This document shows, piece by piece, positions 2,378-10,908 of a DNA stretch of 64,000 bases. The position numbers and the translations under genes were made by a program. The notes beneath the pieces are model-generated. The model searched no databases, was not told the DNA's origin, and saw only the letters and a list, made by a program, of their open reading frames with translations. Position 1 is the first letter of the stretch; every line of letters begins with the position of its first letter. Source of the stretch: Coriobacteriaceae bacterium EMTCatB1 (GTDB lineage Bacteria; Actinomycetota; Coriobacteriia; Anaerosomatales; Anaerosomataceae); assembly GCA_001950395.1 (NCBI GenBank), contig BDLO01000001.1, positions 310,001 through 374,000 of the forward strand, given 5' to 3'.

Positions 2378-3496
2378 ATGAAGGCGCGTCCGGCTATCGC
2401 AGCTGCTGTGGCGCTCATGGCGACCGCGGCGTGCTCAGTGGCGTTCGGGTGGGCCGAGGGCGACGTCACGTACGACGGCGACCTGATGGATTGCCCGGCG
2501 TGCCACGCCGAGGACTTCCCGGTCTTCACCACCCGCTCTGGCCCTCACGGCGGATACACCACCACCACGCAGAAGTGCCAAGTCTGCCACACGGTGCACG
2601 TCGCACCTGCCGACGGCATCCTCCTGCTCCCGAAGTCGACCGTGCTCGGCACCTGCCGTCACTGCCACGACGGGACCGGCGGCTACGGCGTCTACGGCGC
2701 CATCGCCGCGCGCGGGCTGACGGTGGGGGCGGACCACTCGATCGAGACCACCAACCTCGTCCCCGGCGGCGACGCTGCGACGGGCGGCTCGGCGATCACC
2801 ACCTTCACCGGCGCGAACGGGTACCTCTCGTGCGACGACTGCCACTCGCCGCATGCCTCGAGCGTGGTCGCGACCTTCAGCGGAGAACGCATCCGCTTCC
2901 ACGCGTCGGACTTGACCTGGCTGCCGTACTGGAGCACCGACAAGCTACTCAAGCAGCGGCCCACAGGCGCGACGACGCCGACGGCCGTCTACGGGTCGGA
3001 CTGGTGCCTCGGGTGCCACAAGGGCAGGGGCAGCGGCGGCATGGTGAACAACCACCCGGTCGACTCCACGCTCGTGACCGCCACGCCGTTCTACTACGAT
3101 CGCGTCGCCATCGTCACCACGGACACGTCGCTGGAGACCACCTACGGCACGCTCGGGCTTCTCAACGCCATACCGGGCTCGCTTCCGAGCGCGATCTGGC
3201 ACAACCGCGGCTTCGTCATGCCGTATCCGCGGACGCCCGCGCAGTCAGGGCACTACCCGATCTGCCAGCAGTGCCACGAGGACAGCCGCATCGTCGGGGA
3301 GCCGGGAGCCGTCGCTCCGGCGGCGGTGTACCGGTACGGCGACGGCAACACGAGCGGCGACCCCGGCACGGACAACCCTCTCTTCCAGTGCTTCCCGCAC
3401 GAGACGCAGAACTACCGGATGCTCGTCGAGGCCACCGTCACCGCGTCCACAGACGACCTCTGCCTGAACTGCCACCCGCTGTCGCAGCTCCCGTAG
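2378..3496 (+). CDS. Heptaheme c-type cytochrome, exported
   Basis: Probable extracytoplasmic electron carrier of 372 aa. The N-terminus is a signal peptide (basic MKAR, then an Ala-rich hydrophobic stretch to about residue 25); Cys19 sits in a poor lipobox (ATAAC), so lipidation is uncertain. Seven CxxCH haem-attachment motifs are at residues 39, 67, 93, 152, 210, 296 and 362. An eighth site-like element at 338 (CFPHE) lacks the second Cys and more likely supplies a distal His. The start is the ATG after GAGGGGAGG. It stands alone between polA and the CRISPR array, with no reductase or maturation gene beside it. The specific redox partner cannot be told. Confidence 0.85.
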   Translation: MKARPAIAAAVALMATAACSVAFGWAEGDVTYDGDLMDCPACHAEDFPVFTTRSGPHGGYTTTTQKCQVCHTVHVAPADGILLLPKSTVLGTCRHCHDGTGGYGVYGAIAARGLTVGADHSIETTNLVPGGDAATGGSAITTFTGANGYLSCDDCHSPHASSVVATFSGERIRFHASDLTWLPYWSTDKLLKQRPTGATTPTAVYGSDWCLGCHKGRGSGGMVNNHPVDSTLVTATPFYYDRVAIVTTDTSLETTYGTLGLLNAIPGSLPSAIWHNRGFVMPYPRTPAQSGHYPICQQCHEDSRIVGEPGAVAPAAVYRYGDGNTSGDPGTDNPLFQCFPHETQNYRMLVEATVTASTDDLCLNCHPLSQLP

Positions 3497-3530: not shown

Positions 3531-4973
3531 GTCATGGGTTCCCTGCAAACCCATCCATGCTAAGATCCTTGATCTGCAGATAGCCCCATGGTGAGTCGTC
3601 ATGGGTTCCCTGCAAACCCATCCATGCTAAGATCACTAAGGACGGCAAGCGCGTGCCCGGTGTGGTCATGGGTTCCCTGCAAACCCATCCATGCTAAGAT
3701 CTGCATGATGTGCGACGTTATCCACGTGTCAGTCATGGGTTCCCTGCAAACCCATCCATGCTAAGATCGCGAGGCGGCCACAGGTTGCTCCCCTGACAGT
3801 CATGGGTTCCCTGCAAACCCATCCATGCTAAGATCAAAACGAGAGTGGAGACGAAGACAACATCCGTCATGGGTTCCCTGCAAACCCATCCATGCTAAGA
3901 TCAGCAGCGCCGGCGCACTCTCGTGCTGAGAAGTCATGGGTTCCCTGCAAACCCATCCATGCTAAGATCCACACCAGCACGCACCAGTCCCACGAATCGG
4001 TCATGGGTTCCCTGCAAACCCATCCATGCTAAGATCGCTCCGGAAGCGCCAGCCGATGTGCACCTCGTCATGGGTTCCCTGCAAACCCATCCATGCTAAG
4101 ATCTCGCGATGGTCGCTTTCGCGCAGCGTCACGGTCATGGGTTCCCTGCAAACCCATCCATGCTAAGATCTCGAACACGCAGTCCGTCGCCTCGATGCGG
4201 TCATGGGTTCCCTGCAAACCCATCCATGCTAAGATCACAGGTGCGGCACGAACGGCACGAAGCCCAGTCATGGGTTCCCTGCAAACCCATCCATGCTAAG
4301 ATCGCCTGAGAGCGTGGACATGGTGTTCACGGAGTCATGGGTTCCCTGCAAACCCATCCATGCTAAGATCGTCGGGGCCGATGCCGTCGATGGTGCAGAC
4401 GTCATGGGTTCCCTGCAAACCCATCCATGCTAAGATCTGTAGGACTGCTCAGGAGAGAGCACGGAACGTCATGGGTTCCCTGCAAACCCATCCATGCTAA
4501 GATCTGGAGCAGCTCGCGGTCTTTCTGGGTGTATGTCATGGGTTCCCTGCAAACCCATCCATGCTAAGATCATGCTCGTGATCGTAACCGCGCTTAGAGA
4601 CGTCATGGGTTCCCTGCAAACCCATCCATGCTAAGATCCTTGTGACTGGTCGGCATCTCCCCACCTCCGTCATGGGTTCCCTGCAAACCCATCCATGCTA
4701 AGATCCGCCGAGAAGGTGCCGAGCACGCGGGTGCTGTCATGGGTTCCCTGCAAACCCATCCATGCTAAGATCATGGTCGATCCCTACAGCGGCGCCACGT
4801 CCGTCATGGGTTCCCTGCAAACCCATCCATGCTAAGATCCAACTTCAGCATCTCCACTCCTTTCTACCAGTCATGGGTTCCCTGCAAACCCATCCATGCT
4901 AAGATCATAGCAAGGCCGGCCACGAACGCAGCACCGGTCATGGGTTCCCTGCAAACCCATCCATGCTAAGATC
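3531..4973 (+). CRISPR. Type II-C CRISPR array, 22 repeats / 21 spacers
   Basis: There are 22 identical 37-nt repeats, beginning GTCATGGGTTCCC and ending CCATGCTAAGATC, at a constant 67-nt period. The exception is one 66-nt step between repeats 10 (4134) and 11 (4200), where the spacer is 29 nt instead of 30. If the invariant final C is assigned to the spacer, the unit is the usual 36-nt repeat with 29-31-nt spacers. Each repeat holds a perfect 7-bp inverted repeat (ATGGGTT / AACCCAT). No repeat is degenerate, so polarity cannot be read from decay. The plus-strand reading is taken as the crRNA orientation because the repeat ends in an extended -10 like Neisseria type II-C repeats, and because the anti-repeat near cas9 is transcribed from the minus strand. 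The array lies 66 bp past cas2. Confidence 0.98.
3558..3566 (+). promoter_or_regulatory. Intra-repeat extended -10 promoter (first of 22 copies)
   Basis: TGCTAAGAT occupies repeat positions 28-36 in every copy. It corresponds in place and form to TGCTACAAT at the end of Neisseria type II-C repeats, which drives transcription of the adjacent spacer. The likely start point falls inside each spacer, which would make short individually initiated crRNAs and remove the need for a leader promoter. Only 34 bp separate the array from the cytochrome stop codon. Position is seen; activity is inferred by analogy. Confidence 0.6.
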
Positions 4974-4985
4974 TGAGCATGGAAA

Positions 4986-5015
4986 AGCCCCAGGTCAGGA
5001 TGCTGATCTGGGGCT
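4986..5015 (-). terminator. Hairpin terminator after cas2
   Basis: AGCCCCAG and CTGGGGCT form an 8-bp stem with an inner TCAG/CTGA extension. On the minus strand it is followed directly by TTTT (4985-4982), the arrangement of an intrinsic terminator for cas9-cas1-cas2. The stem would also form on plus-strand transcripts leaving the array, though no T-run follows there. Confidence 0.75.
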
Positions 5016-5039
5016 CTATTCTGTCGGAAATCTGAGTGT

Positions 5040-5357
5040 TTAGAAGGTCAGCTGCTCGTATTCGCACTGCTTTTCCTCTGGTCTTTGCTGTCCAAGCAAT
5101 ACCTCGATAGAGGCGTACTGCTTCTCGGTGACCACCATGCATCTCACGCTGCCTCTTGGCGGTAGATGGGCTTTGAGGCGAGCGAGGTGCATGTCTGTGC
5201 GATCCAATCCTCCGCATGCCCTGCCGTACACGGAGAACTGTATCGGATAGTACCCGTCCCGCAGCAGGAATCGGCGGAACTCGGAGTAGTTCCGCTTGTC
5301 CCGTCGCGTCTTGACGGGCAAGTCGAAGAAGACAATCAGCCGCATAAGTCGGCTCAT
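5040..5357 (-). CDS. cas2: CRISPR-associated endoribonuclease Cas2
   Basis: Small ferredoxin-fold partner of Cas1 in spacer acquisition. The core reads MRLIVFFDLPVKTRRDKRNYSEFRRFL with the family Asp at the end of strand 1, then GYYPIQFSVYGR and a basic C-terminal half. Start choice is uncertain: ATGs at 5372 (overlapping the cas1 stop), 5363, 5357 and 5345 are all in frame. The one given yields 105 aa; 5345 would yield 101 aa and is the most family-like N-terminus. It is last in the cas9-cas1-cas2 operon, and base composition is visibly lower in GC than the flanking housekeeping genes. Confidence 0.9.
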   Translation of the reverse strand: MSRLMRLIVFFDLPVKTRRDKRNYSEFRRFLLRDGYYPIQFSVYGRACGGLDRTDMHLARLKAHLPPRGSVRCMVVTEKQYASIEVLLGQQRPEEKQCEYEQLTF

Positions 5358-5364
5358 CCTCATC

Positions 5365-6270
5365 CTACTCATAGCGGCGCACCTGATCGCCGACGAGCTC
5401 AGGAAGAGCCAACGCTCGATAGTCGCGAGACAGGATTGCACGGGCGTACGACTCCGCAATCTCCTGAGCTGCCGTCGACACCGTGTAGGTACTCCCATGT
5501 ATCGAACATTCGAGTCGCAAGATTGAGACCAAATACGAACGATAGTCTGTGCTGAGTGGTGTATCGGCCTCGGGAGGCTGCTCGAAGACCATCAAGTCCA
5601 CGCAAGGACGGAACACCTCGACGAAGTCGTCAGCAAGGTTGAAGGGGTTGGCAGAACTCCTGTGGCCCACCCCCAGCGCGCACTGCAATCCGGCGGATGC
5701 CAGAGAGCGTGCGACTGCGGCACGTACGATCGCGTAACCGTAGTCGAGCGCGGAGCTGAGCGCGGAATCCGATCGTCTGCGGAAACCGGGTTCTAGCAAC
5801 TTGAAGTACGTTCTAGCCGCGTAAGCCTCTCTGGCAGTAGAGTCGCCGGACCTCACCGACGCTGCGATTTCTCGAAGTTTTTCTGAGCCCTGTTTGCCGA
5901 GTACGTCGAGGCAGGCCGCTGCGTTGAGAATCTTCTGCTGGACGATTCTTTGCCAAACGCGCTTCTTGAAGGGTTCTGTGAGTTCGATTTGTGCTTTCAG
6001 CAGTGAAGGGATGCGCGGGTTCTGTGCGTAGGGAAGCAGCACGCCGCATGGGGTGTGCTTGCCGTCGACCACCAGGAGGGCGACACCGCGTTGGGCAAGT
6101 TCGCTCAGAACCGAAATCGTGATGCTGCCTCTTGGCGATTCGACGATGACCGCGTCGATGTCCTCGATGGGCAGCGTCAGCTGGCGGTCATCGCGCTCGA
6201 GATGCAGACTGCCGTTGCGCACCACCAGGCGCGCTTCGGACGTGACGACGAGTGTGCGCCAGCCAGCCAT
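5365..6270 (-). CDS. cas1: CRISPR-associated integrase Cas1 (type II)
   Basis: Metal-dependent integrase that inserts new spacers together with Cas2; 301 aa, normal for type II. The N-terminal beta domain (about 1-85) runs through VIVESPRGSITISVLSELAQRGVALLVVDG. The helical catalytic domain carries the acidic residue in REAYAARTYF, the His in LGVGHRSSANPFNLADD and the acidic residues of DDFVEVFRP. It begins 5 bp after the cas9 stop and its stop overlaps the first possible cas2 start, so all three are translationally coupled. No csn2 or cas4 is present, which together with Cas9 size indicates subtype II-C. Confidence 0.97.
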   Translation of the reverse strand: MAGWRTLVVTSEARLVVRNGSLHLERDDRQLTLPIEDIDAVIVESPRGSITISVLSELAQRGVALLVVDGKHTPCGVLLPYAQNPRIPSLLKAQIELTEPFKKRVWQRIVQQKILNAAACLDVLGKQGSEKLREIAASVRSGDSTAREAYAARTYFKLLEPGFRRRSDSALSSALDYGYAIVRAAVARSLASAGLQCALGVGHRSSANPFNLADDFVEVFRPCVDLMVFEQPPEADTPLSTDYRSYLVSILRLECSIHGSTYTVSTAAQEIAESYARAILSRDYRALALPELVGDQVRRYE

Positions 6271-6275
6271 GAATC

Positions 6276-9200
6276 CTATGCGGGTCGCTTACCGGTCCGT
6301 CTAACGGGTGCAATCTCTCCGGTGATGCTGACCTCGACTTTCTCGATTCGATGTGCGAGCTTCGGCGATACTCGAACCGGATCAATCGTTCCGTCTGGCT
6401 TCCGGTTCGAGCGATCGTGGAGATTGCCAGAAATCCTCACACTGTTTCGATCAAACGAAGTCATATACAGCAACGGACCTGGCTGGGACTCGTTCTTCCA
6501 CACGCGGAAGCAATCTCCCGGGTGAAGCGAGAAGAGGAACTCATACGTCTCGTCCATGACGGGCCACTCCGATTCAGGCTTGCCCTGAACGGCGGCACGG
6601 TTCGGTATCCATCCTGCGGCCACGTCTGCGGCATACACGGGTACCACGTAGTGCCGTACCTTCCCCGCGCTGTTTGCTTTCCTGTAGATGTCAAGTCGCA
6701 CGATGGTGTCGTTCTCTGCCATTCCGCCGCGGACAACGATGCCTGAGCGTGCGTCCGTGAACAGCCGGATGCTCCTGACGATCGGTCCTGGGCGTCCGTC
6801 GTTCGTCGGCATCCTGAGCGGCTCGGCTTGGGGGCCGAATGCGCGCTCGGCCCAGGTCTTGCCGGTCTCATGCTCCGCTTCACGCAGCCGTTGGCGAATG
6901 AGCTCGTACAACCGCCAGTTCGCTTCCTCGTCAACGAGGATTGGCGACGGAGTCTTCAGGATCTCGCGGATTTGCGAGTCGCTGAGCTGTGAGAGTTTCG
7001 TGCGCTTGGTTGGCCGCGGGTCTGCGCCCGAGAGCGCCACCCGTCCCCGCTTGGGCAGTTCTCCCAGCGCTTTGCGAACGTGCTTGAGCGAGTAGAGTGT
7101 CTCCTTGTGCCCTCGGCCAGATAGCCGGCGGTTCGGCATGCGGGACACCACGATCTGTTCGGCCGCAGCAATCACGCTGTCGCGGAACTCTGGCCACGGC
7201 TCAAGCACGGGTGGCTCGACGATTTCGCCGGTGTCTGGATCGATCCAGCGACCATCGGGTGTCTTCTCGCATCGCTCGCGCGCCTTGAAGTACCGAGCCA
7301 TGCGGTGCACCATCTTGTGATCAGCAATCGCGCACAGTGTCGCGTCGATAGCGTGGTGCTTATCGCTCTCTTGCCGGTTCTTTTCTTCGCCGAGCCCGAG
7401 GCGCCAGCGCAAGTCGTTCGTCATTCTGCCATTGACCGCAAGCACTCGTGTCTCCGGCAGGTCGAGGTAGCTCTTGACGATGCGCAGGAAGTACTTTGCA
7501 GCGAATTGCGTGGCTGTCAGGTATCGTCCTTGCAGCTCGCGTTTCTGGTCTTCTGAGAGCTCTTCTGTGAGCAGCAGCCGCTTCTTCTTCGGCGGCATCG
7601 GTGAGCTTTGGACCCACGCAGCATACCGCTCGAAGTGCGCATCACCGTGAGCGCGCTTGACGTAGACGGCGGCAAGCTCGTCGCCCTTGTTCCTGTTCTC
7701 CTCTGTGAGCACCAGAACCTTGTTCGCCATCGAGTCGTCGAAGGACACGCTGCGCGGTATGGCGTGGTCGATTTCGGTGTACGTCTGGTCGGTGAGCACG
7801 CGTCGTAGATCCAAGTCCTGAAGCGAGTACGCGCACTTCCCGCCCTGCTGTTCGTATAGCAGGTACTTGCGCCACACGCGCTCGGGCACGGCGGCGGGCG
7901 CGAGTTCGCGGATCCGGTCGAAGATGCGCTCCTTCTCCCGGCGATTCTTCAACTGCTCCTGCTCGATCTCGCGGCGCTTCTGCGGGCTGAGCGCCGCCTC
8001 GCGTGCAAGTTCGACCACCACCCGAGACGGCAAGCCGTACTCAGCGACGATTGCGTTCACGACCTTGCGTGTTTGCGTGAGGGCACGCTTCACGTTGGGA
8101 TTCGTGATCGAGTTGAAGTCTTCGAGCGTGTCGAGAGGCGGAATCCTGTCGGACTTGGCGCCTGTCTGTCGGAGCGAGTGGTTGTACCCTGCCAACTCGC
8201 ACGCTTCGCTATAGACCTTGCCTTGCTCGAGGTACGGAATGAGATTGCGCATCGCTTTCAGGGACAGCCGTGCGTGGCCATCGAAGACGACCGAGTCAGC
8301 GAGCTCCCGTGCTGCGCCTTCCTCGATGCCAAGTTCGATCAGCGCGTTATAGGCCGAATCTGGTCGGAGCCAATACGTGAGTCGGCTCGCGATTTCGTCG
8401 AAGAGATCGGGGTTCGATCGTATCTGCTCCCAAGCCTGCGGGAAGTCGTCTTCGAGCGCGCTACGCACCTTGTGGTAGGACTCCAGCTTGAGGAGCGTCT
8501 CGCTTTGCATGTCCGCTAGCGTCTTGCCGCGCTTGCGCCCTCGCACCTCGAAGAGCCATCCATCGTCTGCGCAGAGCGCCTTGAGCGCCCGCTTGTACTT
8601 CAGATCCTTGACTTCGAGCGCCTCCTGGAACAGAAGCGCGATCTCCTCGGGATCCAGTCGGCGCCGCGCGCCTGAGGAGTGTGTGAGCGTCTGATTGACC
8701 AGCGTCTGGAGCGCCATGAACTTCTGCGCAGTGAAGGTCGCCCTGGGTGCGCGAGGCTCGTCGGGCTCCAGAAAGCACCGGCCAACCTTCTTCATCAAGT
8801 CTGGGCCCTCGGTGAGGTGGGGCGGCTCGTCGACGATCTCGATGTACCGCTGCTCCATCTCGAGAGAGGCGTGCGGATTGCCGAGTCTGCGCTGAGTGTC
8901 GAAGAGGGTGCGAGCCTCCGCGAGCAAGTCGTCGCGGCCGATGGTGCAGATGTACTGGCCTCCCTTGTTCCTGCGCTGCTCACCGTGTGGCCAGTCGGGG
9001 GACTCCATGTACTCGGCGACTGTGCGATAGCCATGCGCGACCATGCCGTCATGGATGGACTTGATGCCGCTCAACATCTCGCCCAGCTTCTTCTTCTCTT
9101 CGGCGTCTACCGTCTCCATCTCGCCTCGCCGGGTGGACTTGAATCCGCGGTGCCGTGCTATGTGGAAGAGGGCGCGCGCCCACTCTCGTGGTTCGAGTCT

Positions 9201-9542
9201 GCGGTCCAGCCCTTGGACCCTGAGCTGCCATGGCGTCAAGTCGTCGGGTCTCGTGCGGAACACGTCCTCAAGCTCTTCACGGCTGCCGACAAGCCCATGC
9301 TCAGCGAACAGGTTCACGATCTCGCGCAGTCTCCGTTTGCGGTTCCTGAGCCGACGCCGCTGGCTCCTGGCGACGCGACGTTCCTCGGCAGGCGTGGTGG
9401 CGTTTGCCGCCTCGCTCCGCACCGCATCGAACGCTCGAACGCCGAGCCGGACGAGACGGATCGGATCATCGGATTCATTCAGCTCGACGACGCTCCACCC
9501 GACGCTCTCGCTGCCGATGTCGAGACCCAACGAATAGCGCAT
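6276..9542 (-). CDS. cas9: CRISPR-associated endonuclease Cas9, compact type II-C
   Basis: RNA-guided DNA endonuclease of 1,088 aa, in the short II-C size class. RuvC-I is at the N-terminus with Asp8 (SLGLDIGSESVGWS). The arginine-rich bridge helix is about 55-75 (RRVARSQRRRLRNRKRRLREIV). RuvC-II has Glu511 (VVVELAREA), HNH has His593 and Asn607 (EIDHAIPRSVSFDDSMANKV), and RuvC-III has His730 and Asp733 (HHAIDA). All nuclease residues are intact. The ATG at 9542 is preferred because GGGGGTG lies 6 nt upstream; a GTG at 9572 would add ten residues. It is first gene of the cas operon, with the tracrRNA just upstream on the same strand. The C-terminal PAM-interacting part is recognisable only by position. 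Confidence 0.98.
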   Translation of the reverse strand: MRYSLGLDIGSESVGWSVVELNESDDPIRLVRLGVRAFDAVRSEAANATTPAEERRVARSQRRRLRNRKRRLREIVNLFAEHGLVGSREELEDVFRTRPDDLTPWQLRVQGLDRRLEPREWARALFHIARHRGFKSTRRGEMETVDAEEKKKLGEMLSGIKSIHDGMVAHGYRTVAEYMESPDWPHGEQRRNKGGQYICTIGRDDLLAEARTLFDTQRRLGNPHASLEMEQRYIEIVDEPPHLTEGPDLMKKVGRCFLEPDEPRAPRATFTAQKFMALQTLVNQTLTHSSGARRRLDPEEIALLFQEALEVKDLKYKRALKALCADDGWLFEVRGRKRGKTLADMQSETLLKLESYHKVRSALEDDFPQAWEQIRSNPDLFDEIASRLTYWLRPDSAYNALIELGIEEGAARELADSVVFDGHARLSLKAMRNLIPYLEQGKVYSEACELAGYNHSLRQTGAKSDRIPPLDTLEDFNSITNPNVKRALTQTRKVVNAIVAEYGLPSRVVVELAREAALSPQKRREIEQEQLKNRREKERIFDRIRELAPAAVPERVWRKYLLYEQQGGKCAYSLQDLDLRRVLTDQTYTEIDHAIPRSVSFDDSMANKVLVLTEENRNKGDELAAVYVKRAHGDAHFERYAAWVQSSPMPPKKKRLLLTEELSEDQKRELQGRYLTATQFAAKYFLRIVKSYLDLPETRVLAVNGRMTNDLRWRLGLGEEKNRQESDKHHAIDATLCAIADHKMVHRMARYFKARERCEKTPDGRWIDPDTGEIVEPPVLEPWPEFRDSVIAAAEQIVVSRMPNRRLSGRGHKETLYSLKHVRKALGELPKRGRVALSGADPRPTKRTKLSQLSDSQIREILKTPSPILVDEEANWRLYELIRQRLREAEHETGKTWAERAFGPQAEPLRMPTNDGRPGPIVRSIRLFTDARSGIVVRGGMAENDTIVRLDIYRKANSAGKVRHYVVPVYAADVAAGWIPNRAAVQGKPESEWPVMDETYEFLFSLHPGDCFRVWKNESQPGPLLYMTSFDRNSVRISGNLHDRSNRKPDGTIDPVRVSPKLAHRIEKVEVSITGEIAPVRRTGKRPA

Positions 9543-9589: not shown

Positions 9590-9598
9590 ATTACAGCA
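9590..9598 (-). promoter_or_regulatory. Putative cas operon promoter (TGC-TGTAAT)
   Basis: On the minus strand an extended -10, TGC then TGTAAT (9595-9590), sits between the tracrRNA terminator and the cas9 start codon. This would leave a leader of about 40 nt. A TTGGTG further upstream is 19 nt away, so the -35 is weak. The TGC extension matches those in the repeats and at the tracrRNA. Confidence 0.45.
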
Positions 9599-9657
9599 TA
9601 TCCCATCGGTCTGACACCAATGGACGAGAGGGGGCTGAGCGGTTCTGATTCGGGCCA

Positions 9658-9752
9658 AAGAAAACGGATACCCCCAAGAGCGTATGCTCCGGGGGCTTAC
9701 CGTGCTGCGCTGAAGGCTGAGCCAACAGCGTTATCATGGGAACCCTGCAAGC
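9658..9752 (-). ncRNA. tracrRNA of the type II-C system
   Basis: The anti-repeat at about 9732-9758 pairs with the first 25 nt of the crRNA repeat. It has eight pairs (including one G-U), a UU/UU internal bulge, then eight more pairs through CCCUGCAA and a few beyond. The bulge is the usual feature of type II repeat:anti-repeat duplexes. Downstream on the minus strand is a nested hairpin at 9708-9730 (CGCTG...CAGCG around GGCTCAGCC), a nexus candidate. A GC-rich hairpin at 9671-9695 (CCCCCGGAGC / GCTCTTGGGGG) followed by a T-rich stretch is a terminator. Ends are estimated from the promoter and terminator. It lies between cas9 and the nucleotidyltransferase gene, in the cas9 direction. Confidence 0.87.
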
Positions 9753-9755
9753 CAT

Positions 9756-9785
9756 CAGATAGCACAGAGTCCTGTCGTTCGTCAA
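9756..9785 (-). promoter_or_regulatory. Putative tracrRNA promoter
   Basis: On the minus strand TTGACG (9785-9780) is followed after 18 nt by TATCTG (9761-9756), which carries a TGC extension. Transcription would begin near 9750, inside the anti-repeat flank, giving an RNA of about 95 nt. Assigned by consensus only. Confidence 0.5.
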
Positions 9786-9864: not shown

Positions 9865-10908
9865 TCAGCCCGTTATGGCCCTGAGCCTCAGCGCGAGCTC
9901 CGGCTGTTCGTCCTTGAGCGCCGCGACGGCCTCGCGCACCAGCCGGACGCTTCGGCGACCCTCGCCGAGGAAGGCGTCCCAGGCACGTTCGACGTCGCCT
10001 GGACGATCCTCCAGGACAGCGCGCAAGACCTGCGCGGCCTGCTCGAGGTCCTTGCACGCCTTGGCTTGCTGGGTGGCAGGCCGAGACCGCGACACCAGCA
10101 GCTTGTGCAGACCGAACCGCGCTGGTTGAGGGACGCGCACCAGGATCCCATCTCCGTCGACGATGGCGCCCTCGACTGGGCTCTCGATCAGATACGACAG
10201 GTGTCTGATCGGCTGGGCAGCGACTCCGAGGTGATGGATGTGCACCGGCCGATCGGATTCGCGGCGGGCCGGCGTGATGATGTCCACCCTGAGCCCTTTT
10301 CCCCGAACGGTGAATGAAGTCGTAGGGCTGTCGGCCTCGAGGCCGGGGACCGGAAGGAATCCCATGTTGAGACGCTCCAACGCCGTCGCCACGTCGGCTG
10401 AAGGGTGGGGGACCGCCACGGTGATCCGCGGATCTGCGGCGATGTCGATGTCGAGCGTCTTCAGCGACGAAGACCAGCGCCATCCGAGGAGGTTGCCGAT
10501 TGCGACGAAGGCGTGCGTGCCGACGAGCACTCCACCGAGCCGGAAGACGCCGGCGTCGGCGAGTGCTCCGATCACACGCGCGGATGGGGAGTCGGTGACC
10601 ATCCCGCCGCCAGCCCTGACGAGCGATGCGAGCCGGGCGATCGAACGCTTGTCAGACTCGGCGAGGGCACGCGTCTCGGCGAACCGCGTGACGAGATCGT
10701 CGAGGTCTGGGGATTTCGGCCCGATGTAGGTCTGGCGCTTGGTTCCTCCAGGGAGCGACTGTTGGAAGTAGTAGTACTGGCGGCCTTTGACTGTCTTGAG
10801 CGTGAAGGTCCCGGGCGAATACCCGAGCGAACGCATCGCCTCGAACGTCCGTAGGCGCTCGACGAGCTCTGCGCACAGAGTCTGCGTCTCGAGCGGCATG
10901 CGCTCCAT
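9865..10908 (-). CDS. GSU2403-type nucleotidyltransferase-fold protein
   Basis: A 347-aa cytoplasmic protein that looks like the GSU2403 family of nucleotidyltransferase-fold proteins. The N-terminal 100 residues are helical and include YYYFQQSLPGGTKRQTYIGP. The NTase core has GGVLVGTHAF (125-134) and the metal-binding pair TLDIDIA (Asp153, Asp155). The remainder is helical, ending in a 60-residue helical tail. The ATG is chosen for the GGGAGG six bases upstream. It is monocistronic, next to CRISPR-Cas, with a 9-bp inverted repeat in its promoter region. Related folds serve in toxin-antitoxin and defence systems, but substrate and role are unknown; no partner gene is adjacent. Confidence 0.7.
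   Translation of the reverse strand: MERMPLETQTLCAELVERLRTFEAMRSLGYSPGTFTLKTVKGRQYYYFQQSLPGGTKRQTYIGPKSPDLDDLVTRFAETRALAESDKRSIARLASLVRAGGGMVTDSPSARVIGALADAGVFRLGGVLVGTHAFVAIGNLLGWRWSSSLKTLDIDIAADPRITVAVPHPSADVATALERLNMGFLPVPGLEADSPTTSFTVRGKGLRVDIITPARRESDRPVHIHHLGVAAQPIRHLSYLIESPVEGAIVDGDGILVRVPQPARFGLHKLLVSRSRPATQQAKACKDLEQAAQVLRAVLEDRPGDVERAWDAFLGEGRRSVRLVREAVAALKDEQPELALRLRAITG

Follow-up and report, generated by a model that had tools for sequence, protein, structure and literature searches.

A short stretch of non-coding DNA upstream of a cas9 gene, which a first-pass annotation had read as a tracrRNA gene, raises two questions: does it actually supply the guide RNA scaffold of the neighboring Cas9, and what governs the expression of the cas genes lying next to it? 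The window, i.e., the whole stretch of 64,000 nucleotides that was analysed, corresponds to positions 310001–374000 of a genome consisting of a single contig of 1,838,614 bases. The sequence evidence indicates, with a probability that we place at about 95%, that a complete type II-C CRISPR-Cas9 system has its tracrRNA encoded on the minus strand from 9750 to 9658. This RNA is an ordinary one, its layout being that of the GeoCas9 and CcCas9 loci; the part of the locus worth following, to which the surrounding evidence points, is an apparent damage-type promoter in front of the cas genes.

To judge from its gene content, the locus is a complete type II-C system. The three cas genes are recognized by their family models (Table 1), both nuclease domains of Cas9 are matched in Pfam (HNH_4 and RuvC_III), and the assignment to type II-C is made because neither csn2 nor cas4 was found between or beside cas9, cas1 and cas2. 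The nearest Cas9 proteins were judged by bit score: the closest solved relatives, which we take to be NmeCas9 and GeoCas9, score 504–524 bits, and the StreptococcusThermophilus1 and S. pyogenes Cas9 entries do not exceed 150 bits. A search of viral contigs yielded no Cas9 relative, and one search of genome contigs yielded distant Cas9s only. The array lies 66 nt past the end of cas9-cas1-cas2, the tracrRNA and a nucleotidyltransferase gene occupying the opposite flank.

Table 1. Features of the CRISPR-Cas9 locus and its surroundings (coordinates are those of the window)
Feature	Position	Strand	Remarks
CRISPR array	3531..4973	plus	22 identical repeats of 37 nt; 21 spacers, all 30 nt long except one of 29 nt
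cas2	5040..5345 (start approximate)	minus	TIGR01573, 64.5 bits
cas1	5365..6270	minus	TIGR03639 (type II Cas1), 261.8 bits
cas9	6276..9542	minus	1088 aa from ATG 9542; TIGR01865 (cas_Csn1, NCBIfam), 682.9 bits
Candidate PafBC-type promoter of cas9, TGTCAG-N10-TATGCT	9595..9616	minus	between tracrRNA and cas9, just outside the interval of the first-pass annotation
tracrRNA	9658..9750	minus	predicted transcript of ~92 nt; upstream of cas9, co-directional
GC-rich terminal hairpin	9671-9695; 9664..9703 with ACGG/CCGU base	minus	followed by UUUUCUUU
Nested stem-loop 1 (SL1), CGCUG-UU-GGC-UCA-GCC-UU-CAGCG	9708..9730	minus	8 pairs kept in four genomes
Anti-repeat core UUGCAGGG-UU-CCCAUGAU	9733..9750	minus	pairs with repeat; unique in genome
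Extended −10 of tracrRNA promoter, TGC-TATCTG	9756..9764	minus	hexamer TATCTG at 9761-9756; TG.TA invariant in four same-genus loci
−35 of tracrRNA promoter, TTGACG	9780..9785	minus	TTGAC invariant in four same-genus loci
Nucleotidyltransferase gene, NTP_transf_8 (PF12281)	9865-10908		flanked by the tracrRNA and rpsA, in the window alone

Read on the minus strand from 9750, the predicted transcript consists of UUGCAGGGUUCCCAUGAU (the anti-repeat), AA, SL1, CAGC, the terminal hairpin and UUUUCUUU. The elements named by the first-pass annotation are all present where it had placed them, and its proposal that the parts of a II-C guide RNA are assembled upstream of cas9 is borne out, anti-repeat, nested stem-loop and terminal hairpin being found together in this type II-C tracrRNA gene. 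The co-folding with the repeat that it had suggested gives a duplex followed by the two hairpins, at about −67 to −73 kcal/mol (−67 to −70 when the first 20–24 nt of the repeat are used); in the duplex the anti-repeat pairs with the 5′ end of the repeat through two 8-bp helices separated by the anticipated UU/UU bulge. The terminal hairpin possesses, in addition to the GC-rich stem already described, an ACGG/CCGU base (ACGG...CCCCCGGAGC-AUAC-GCUCUUGGGGG...CCGU) and, together with the UUUUCUUU that follows, is a probable intrinsic terminator. As to the promoter, both boxes of the proposed TTGACG-N18-TATCTG and their 18-nt spacer are there, but the −10 is convincing only if taken in its extended form, a feature that had been overlooked. 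A simple promoter and terminator scan reported neither the promoter nor the terminator of the tracrRNA, because the −10 hexamer agrees with the consensus at three of its six positions and the stem of the terminator is discontinuous. In Rfam, the tracrRNA region matched no family at gathering score, the sole hit being a chance match to DicF (E 4.5).

When at most one mismatch is allowed, a genome-wide search for the repeat core TCATGGGNNCCCTGCA finds the 22 repeats of the array, the site at 9734-9749 and nothing else, the 12 matches with two mismatches being equal in number to those of a reversed-pattern control. No better anti-repeat exists elsewhere, and the first-pass annotation thus survives the refuting condition that it had itself set on this point. 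Duplex energy was rejected as the sole means of recognizing an anti-repeat, being unspecific in GC-rich DNA: the best window outside the array reaches −40.6 kcal/mol and another one −40.5. Conservation in three genomes of the same genus is stronger evidence than duplex energy.

These three genomes (G001–G003) contain this Cas9 at 76–82% identity, with the RNA directly upstream of cas9. Across the four same-genus loci, pairwise identity reaches 96% for the anti-repeat, 93% for SL1, 86% for the −35 and 84% for the terminator, as opposed to 34% between −35 and −10 and 38% past the terminator; the spacing between the invariant TTGAC and TG.TA is 17–18. The nested hairpin postulated by the first reading varies in its loop only, and 98.9% of the cells of the comparison pair in the named structure vis-à-vis 41–52% for slid versions, the corresponding figure for the terminal hairpin being 97.5–100% in the four genomes. 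Double-sided covariation was not seen in these hairpins among four very similar sequences, and is uninformative here because the sequences hardly vary. Position 18 of the repeat is changed from A to G in G001 with respect to the window, and its partner in the G001 anti-repeat from U to C; the terminal repeat of G002 likewise has G at position 18, the anti-repeat keeping U, which results in a G-U pair. Furthermore, eight relatives at the level of the order, whose Cas9 is 36–38% identical and whose repeat is a different one (GTCTTAGCTCCCCGCC...), possess a matching tracrRNA just upstream of cas9. Degenerate repeats do exist at array or cas borders, but the possibility that the one seen here is such a relic beside an incidental terminator, with the working tracrRNA located elsewhere, is practically negligible, given that the complete genome holds no other anti-repeat and that the pairing-competent core is 96% conserved over four species as against 34–38% for its flanks.

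The first-pass annotation had located the RNA between cas9 and the nucleotidyltransferase gene. The position beside cas9 stands, but the other neighbor is incidental: its place is taken by rpsA in G001 and by a multihaem cytochrome gene in G002 and G003. The nucleotidyltransferase was accordingly rejected as a partner of the tracrRNA, not being next to it in any of these three genomes, and a comparison of this gene with a defence library gave no match. Two further observations concern the borders of the cassette. In the window the multihaem cytochrome gene (2378-3496) adjoins the array, while in G002/G003 (L024 738 onward; L023 ~5084) it adjoins the tracrRNA, so that one of the two, cassette or cytochrome gene, has changed place; in G001 (L022 8552-8627), 2.6 copies of a 29-nt tandem repeat lie between the tracrRNA terminator and cas9.

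On the other side of the cas genes, all 22 repeats of the array end in the extended −10 TGCTAAGAT, and the repeats of G001 do likewise. In C. jejuni, repeats of this type have been shown experimentally to start a crRNA in each spacer (PMC3656092), and the same repeat-borne starts are reported for N. meningitidis, as cited in PMC7038990. By analogy, transcription of each crRNA probably begins within the repeat that precedes its spacer and, since repeat promoters of this kind start one crRNA per spacer, the crRNAs probably need at most one processing step. A comparison of the spacers with phage gave no match, and the matches found in relatives are short and chance-like; a recurrent one adjoins a YbaB-like gene and probably falls within a conserved recR-like motif. 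No PAM was derived, because no protospacer was found. Directly past the last repeat (4974-5030) lies the element GAGCATGGAAAAGCCCCAGGTCAG...CTGATCTGGGGC, which is conserved in three species (array ends; L022 and L023) and is probably a terminator working in both directions or an anchor of the leader; transcription of this element from the −10 of the last repeat would yield a short hairpin RNA.

The second question, namely what drives the cas genes themselves, leads to the motif TGTCAG-N10-YANNNT. It occurs once per leader in 12 of the 12 related cas9 genes, 66–87 nt before the RuvC-I codons, and is kept down to 36% Cas9 identity; being related, these leaders do not count as 12 separate events, although on either side of the motif their sequence has widely diverged. 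The leaders of the window's genus carry the exact form TGTCRG-N10-TANNNT and the eight distant loci the form YANNNT, with C at the first −10 position. In the 349 kb of strand sequence from the 12 loci the motif has 16 sites, distributed over 12 cas9 leaders, three tracrRNA leaders and one other place, and it appeared in 108 of 200,000 shuffles of the window's cas9 leader. The three tracrRNA leaders belong to order-level relatives (L028 3427+, L029 3873+, L030 7494-) in which a PafBC-type motif thus also precedes the tracrRNA; its predicted start is ~40 nt before the anti-repeat, and the tracrRNA of these relatives may be longer and damage-regulated.

The existence of this conserved promoter motif of cas9 past the terminator also bears on whether the upstream RNA is a leader acting in cis, transcripts from 9750 reading through into cas9 so that the hairpins set its expression while pairing with crRNA is secondary. 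The RNA is indeed on the same strand and directly upstream of cas9, its terminator has an interrupted stem, and in S. pyogenes the II-A tracrRNA also acts as a repressor of its cas promoter (PMC11417352). However, besides the separate promoter motif of cas9, the complementarity to the repeat and the matched change in G001 would be needless for a pure leader, making this alternative very unlikely. The leader and guide roles are in any case compatible and not exclusive. A correctly assigned tracrRNA provides the scaffold with which this distant II-C Cas9 of 1088 aa could be put to the test.

In M. tuberculosis the PafBC motif is TGTCGG or TGTCAG followed, after a gap of ten bases, by TA-N3-T (PMC8151990), and PafBC itself is a WYL regulator that, when activated by ssDNA, lets the housekeeping polymerase use such promoters (PMC11804915). 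By sequence comparison the cas9 motif matches this mycobacterial DNA-damage promoter motif. The genome contains exactly two WYL proteins, which are adjacent and represent a PafB-PafC pair: one matches the PafB-like chain of PDB 7p5x (6e-16), the other PafBC in 6sj9 (9e-31) and PafC (2e-30). Apart from the window's own genome, PafC was found in all eight order-level genomes asked. Together with the lexA/LysM-nrdR neighborhood described below, the presence of PafBC suggests an actinobacterial origin.

Over the whole genome TGTCAG-N10-TANNNT has 17 sites, compared with one in the reversed control; when spacings from 5 to 32 were tested, N10 alone held 17 of the 47 sites. The motif is also in excess over control in most of 31 order-level genomes, and the TGTCGG variant has eight sites as against three in the control. 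Among the genes that follow the 17 sites are ruvC, one for an sbcD-like metallophosphoesterase and, running divergently from lexA, one for a LysM protein with nrdR, as well as cas9, hsdM and a DruA gene with a NurA-domain gene; those behind TGTCGG sites include genes that, from their translations, read as priA, recJ, an RNase D-like gene and clpC. Chance probably accounts for those of the 17 that fall within coding sequence, in an ABC-lipoprotein-like gene and in recF. Two of the sites concern defence-type genes other than cas9: at G000:C1:1185815 (L063 3235-5747) the motif is followed by the DruA (PF14236) gene and then by the NurA-domain gene, the second such case, and at G000:C1:42326 (L041 1501-3022) hsdM, a type I methylase gene and the third case, starts 58 nt past the motif.

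Several sites precede genes having no known damage link (surface proteins, PfkB, a glycosyltransferase), and it could be argued that the motif is no PafBC promoter, serving instead as a promoter in general use in this lineage, as a binding site for some other regulator or as a target of natural guides. We consider this the less likely reading. A general promoter is hardly compatible with only 17 exact sites in the genome; the spacing is fixed at 10; ruvC, the sbcD-like gene and LysM-nrdR beside lexA are among the sites; and the only two WYL proteins of the genome are the adjacent PafB-PafC pair. In addition, TGTCRG is absent from eight II-C cas9 leaders of the same class but of other orders, in whose genomes a remote PafC homologue was found in seven cases and none in one. 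Targeting by natural guides was separately rejected as the cause of TGTCAG conservation, the motif being genome-wide with a −10 at fixed distance.

It is thus probable, because the match and enrichment of the motif, the PafB-PafC pair, the repair genes at the sites and the TGTCRG-less leaders within the class all concur, that cas9-cas1-cas2 is a target of PafBC, and we infer from sequence that the operon would respond to DNA damage through this RecA-independent, ssDNA-sensing regulator. The pathway envisaged is the following. The tracrRNA and the crRNAs would be transcribed from ordinary promoters, the anti-repeat base-pairing with the 5′-most 18 nt of the repeat carried by each crRNA; as in the family to which the system belongs, RNase III would trim the repeat/anti-repeat duplex and Cas9 would bind the duplex, stem-loop 1 and the terminal hairpin. 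The cas9-cas1-cas2 transcript would start at its own promoter of the PafBC type, between the tracrRNA terminator and cas9, and PafBC, upon sensing ssDNA, would probably raise the supply of Cas proteins. For the order as a whole it seems reasonably likely that the PafBC regulon includes the CRISPR-Cas9 protein genes (joined in some genomes by the tracrRNA), hsdM and a DruA-type gene, immunity being raised by a RecA-independent damage response to ssDNA while the guide RNAs are produced continuously.

To our knowledge, the natural inducers of CRISPR-Cas9 are mostly unknown; the conserved promoter motif of a known damage regulator before every related cas9 examined makes the question of induction directly testable and, if the assignment is true, ties Cas9 immunity to the DNA-damage alarm of the cell. 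Among the papers available for searching, none was found to link PafBC to cas genes, which is weak evidence of novelty.

Comparison with known systems puts these features in perspective. The II-C locus of Geobacillus stearothermophilus (GeoCas9, PMC5681539) resembles that of the window in having the tracrRNA upstream of cas9 and an array whose transcription runs counter to that of the cas genes, an arrangement documented there by RNA-seq. GeoCas9 is a distant relative (504 bits), albeit among the two best solved ones; its locus has another repeat, and the PafBC-type motif before cas9 is a feature of the window. The same architecture is seen in Clostridium cellulolyticum (CcCas9, II-C, PMC7038990), whose tracrRNA, with products of 70–107 nt, is upstream of the cas genes, whose array is opposite and whose repeat carries an extended −10 in its last nine nucleotides; beyond architecture, however, the sequences are unrelated, and no damage-type promoter is reported for CcCas9. 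The II-C systems of Neisseria (NmeCas9) and C. jejuni (PMC3656092) share with the window the repeats ending in an extended −10, experimental there and sequence-based here, and the Nme-type Cas9 is the best solved relative of the window's Cas9, whereas their tracrRNA is elsewhere in the locus and the repeat of the window is 37 nt long. Finally, the mycobacterial PafBC regulon (PMC8151990, PMC6789036, PMC11804915) offers the counterpart of the promoter: the same TGTCAG/TGTCGG-N10-TA-N3-T motif, an adjacent PafB-PafC pair, and the motif at ruvC and at the LysM-nrdR unit beside lexA, the difference being that here it also precedes cas9, hsdM and druA.
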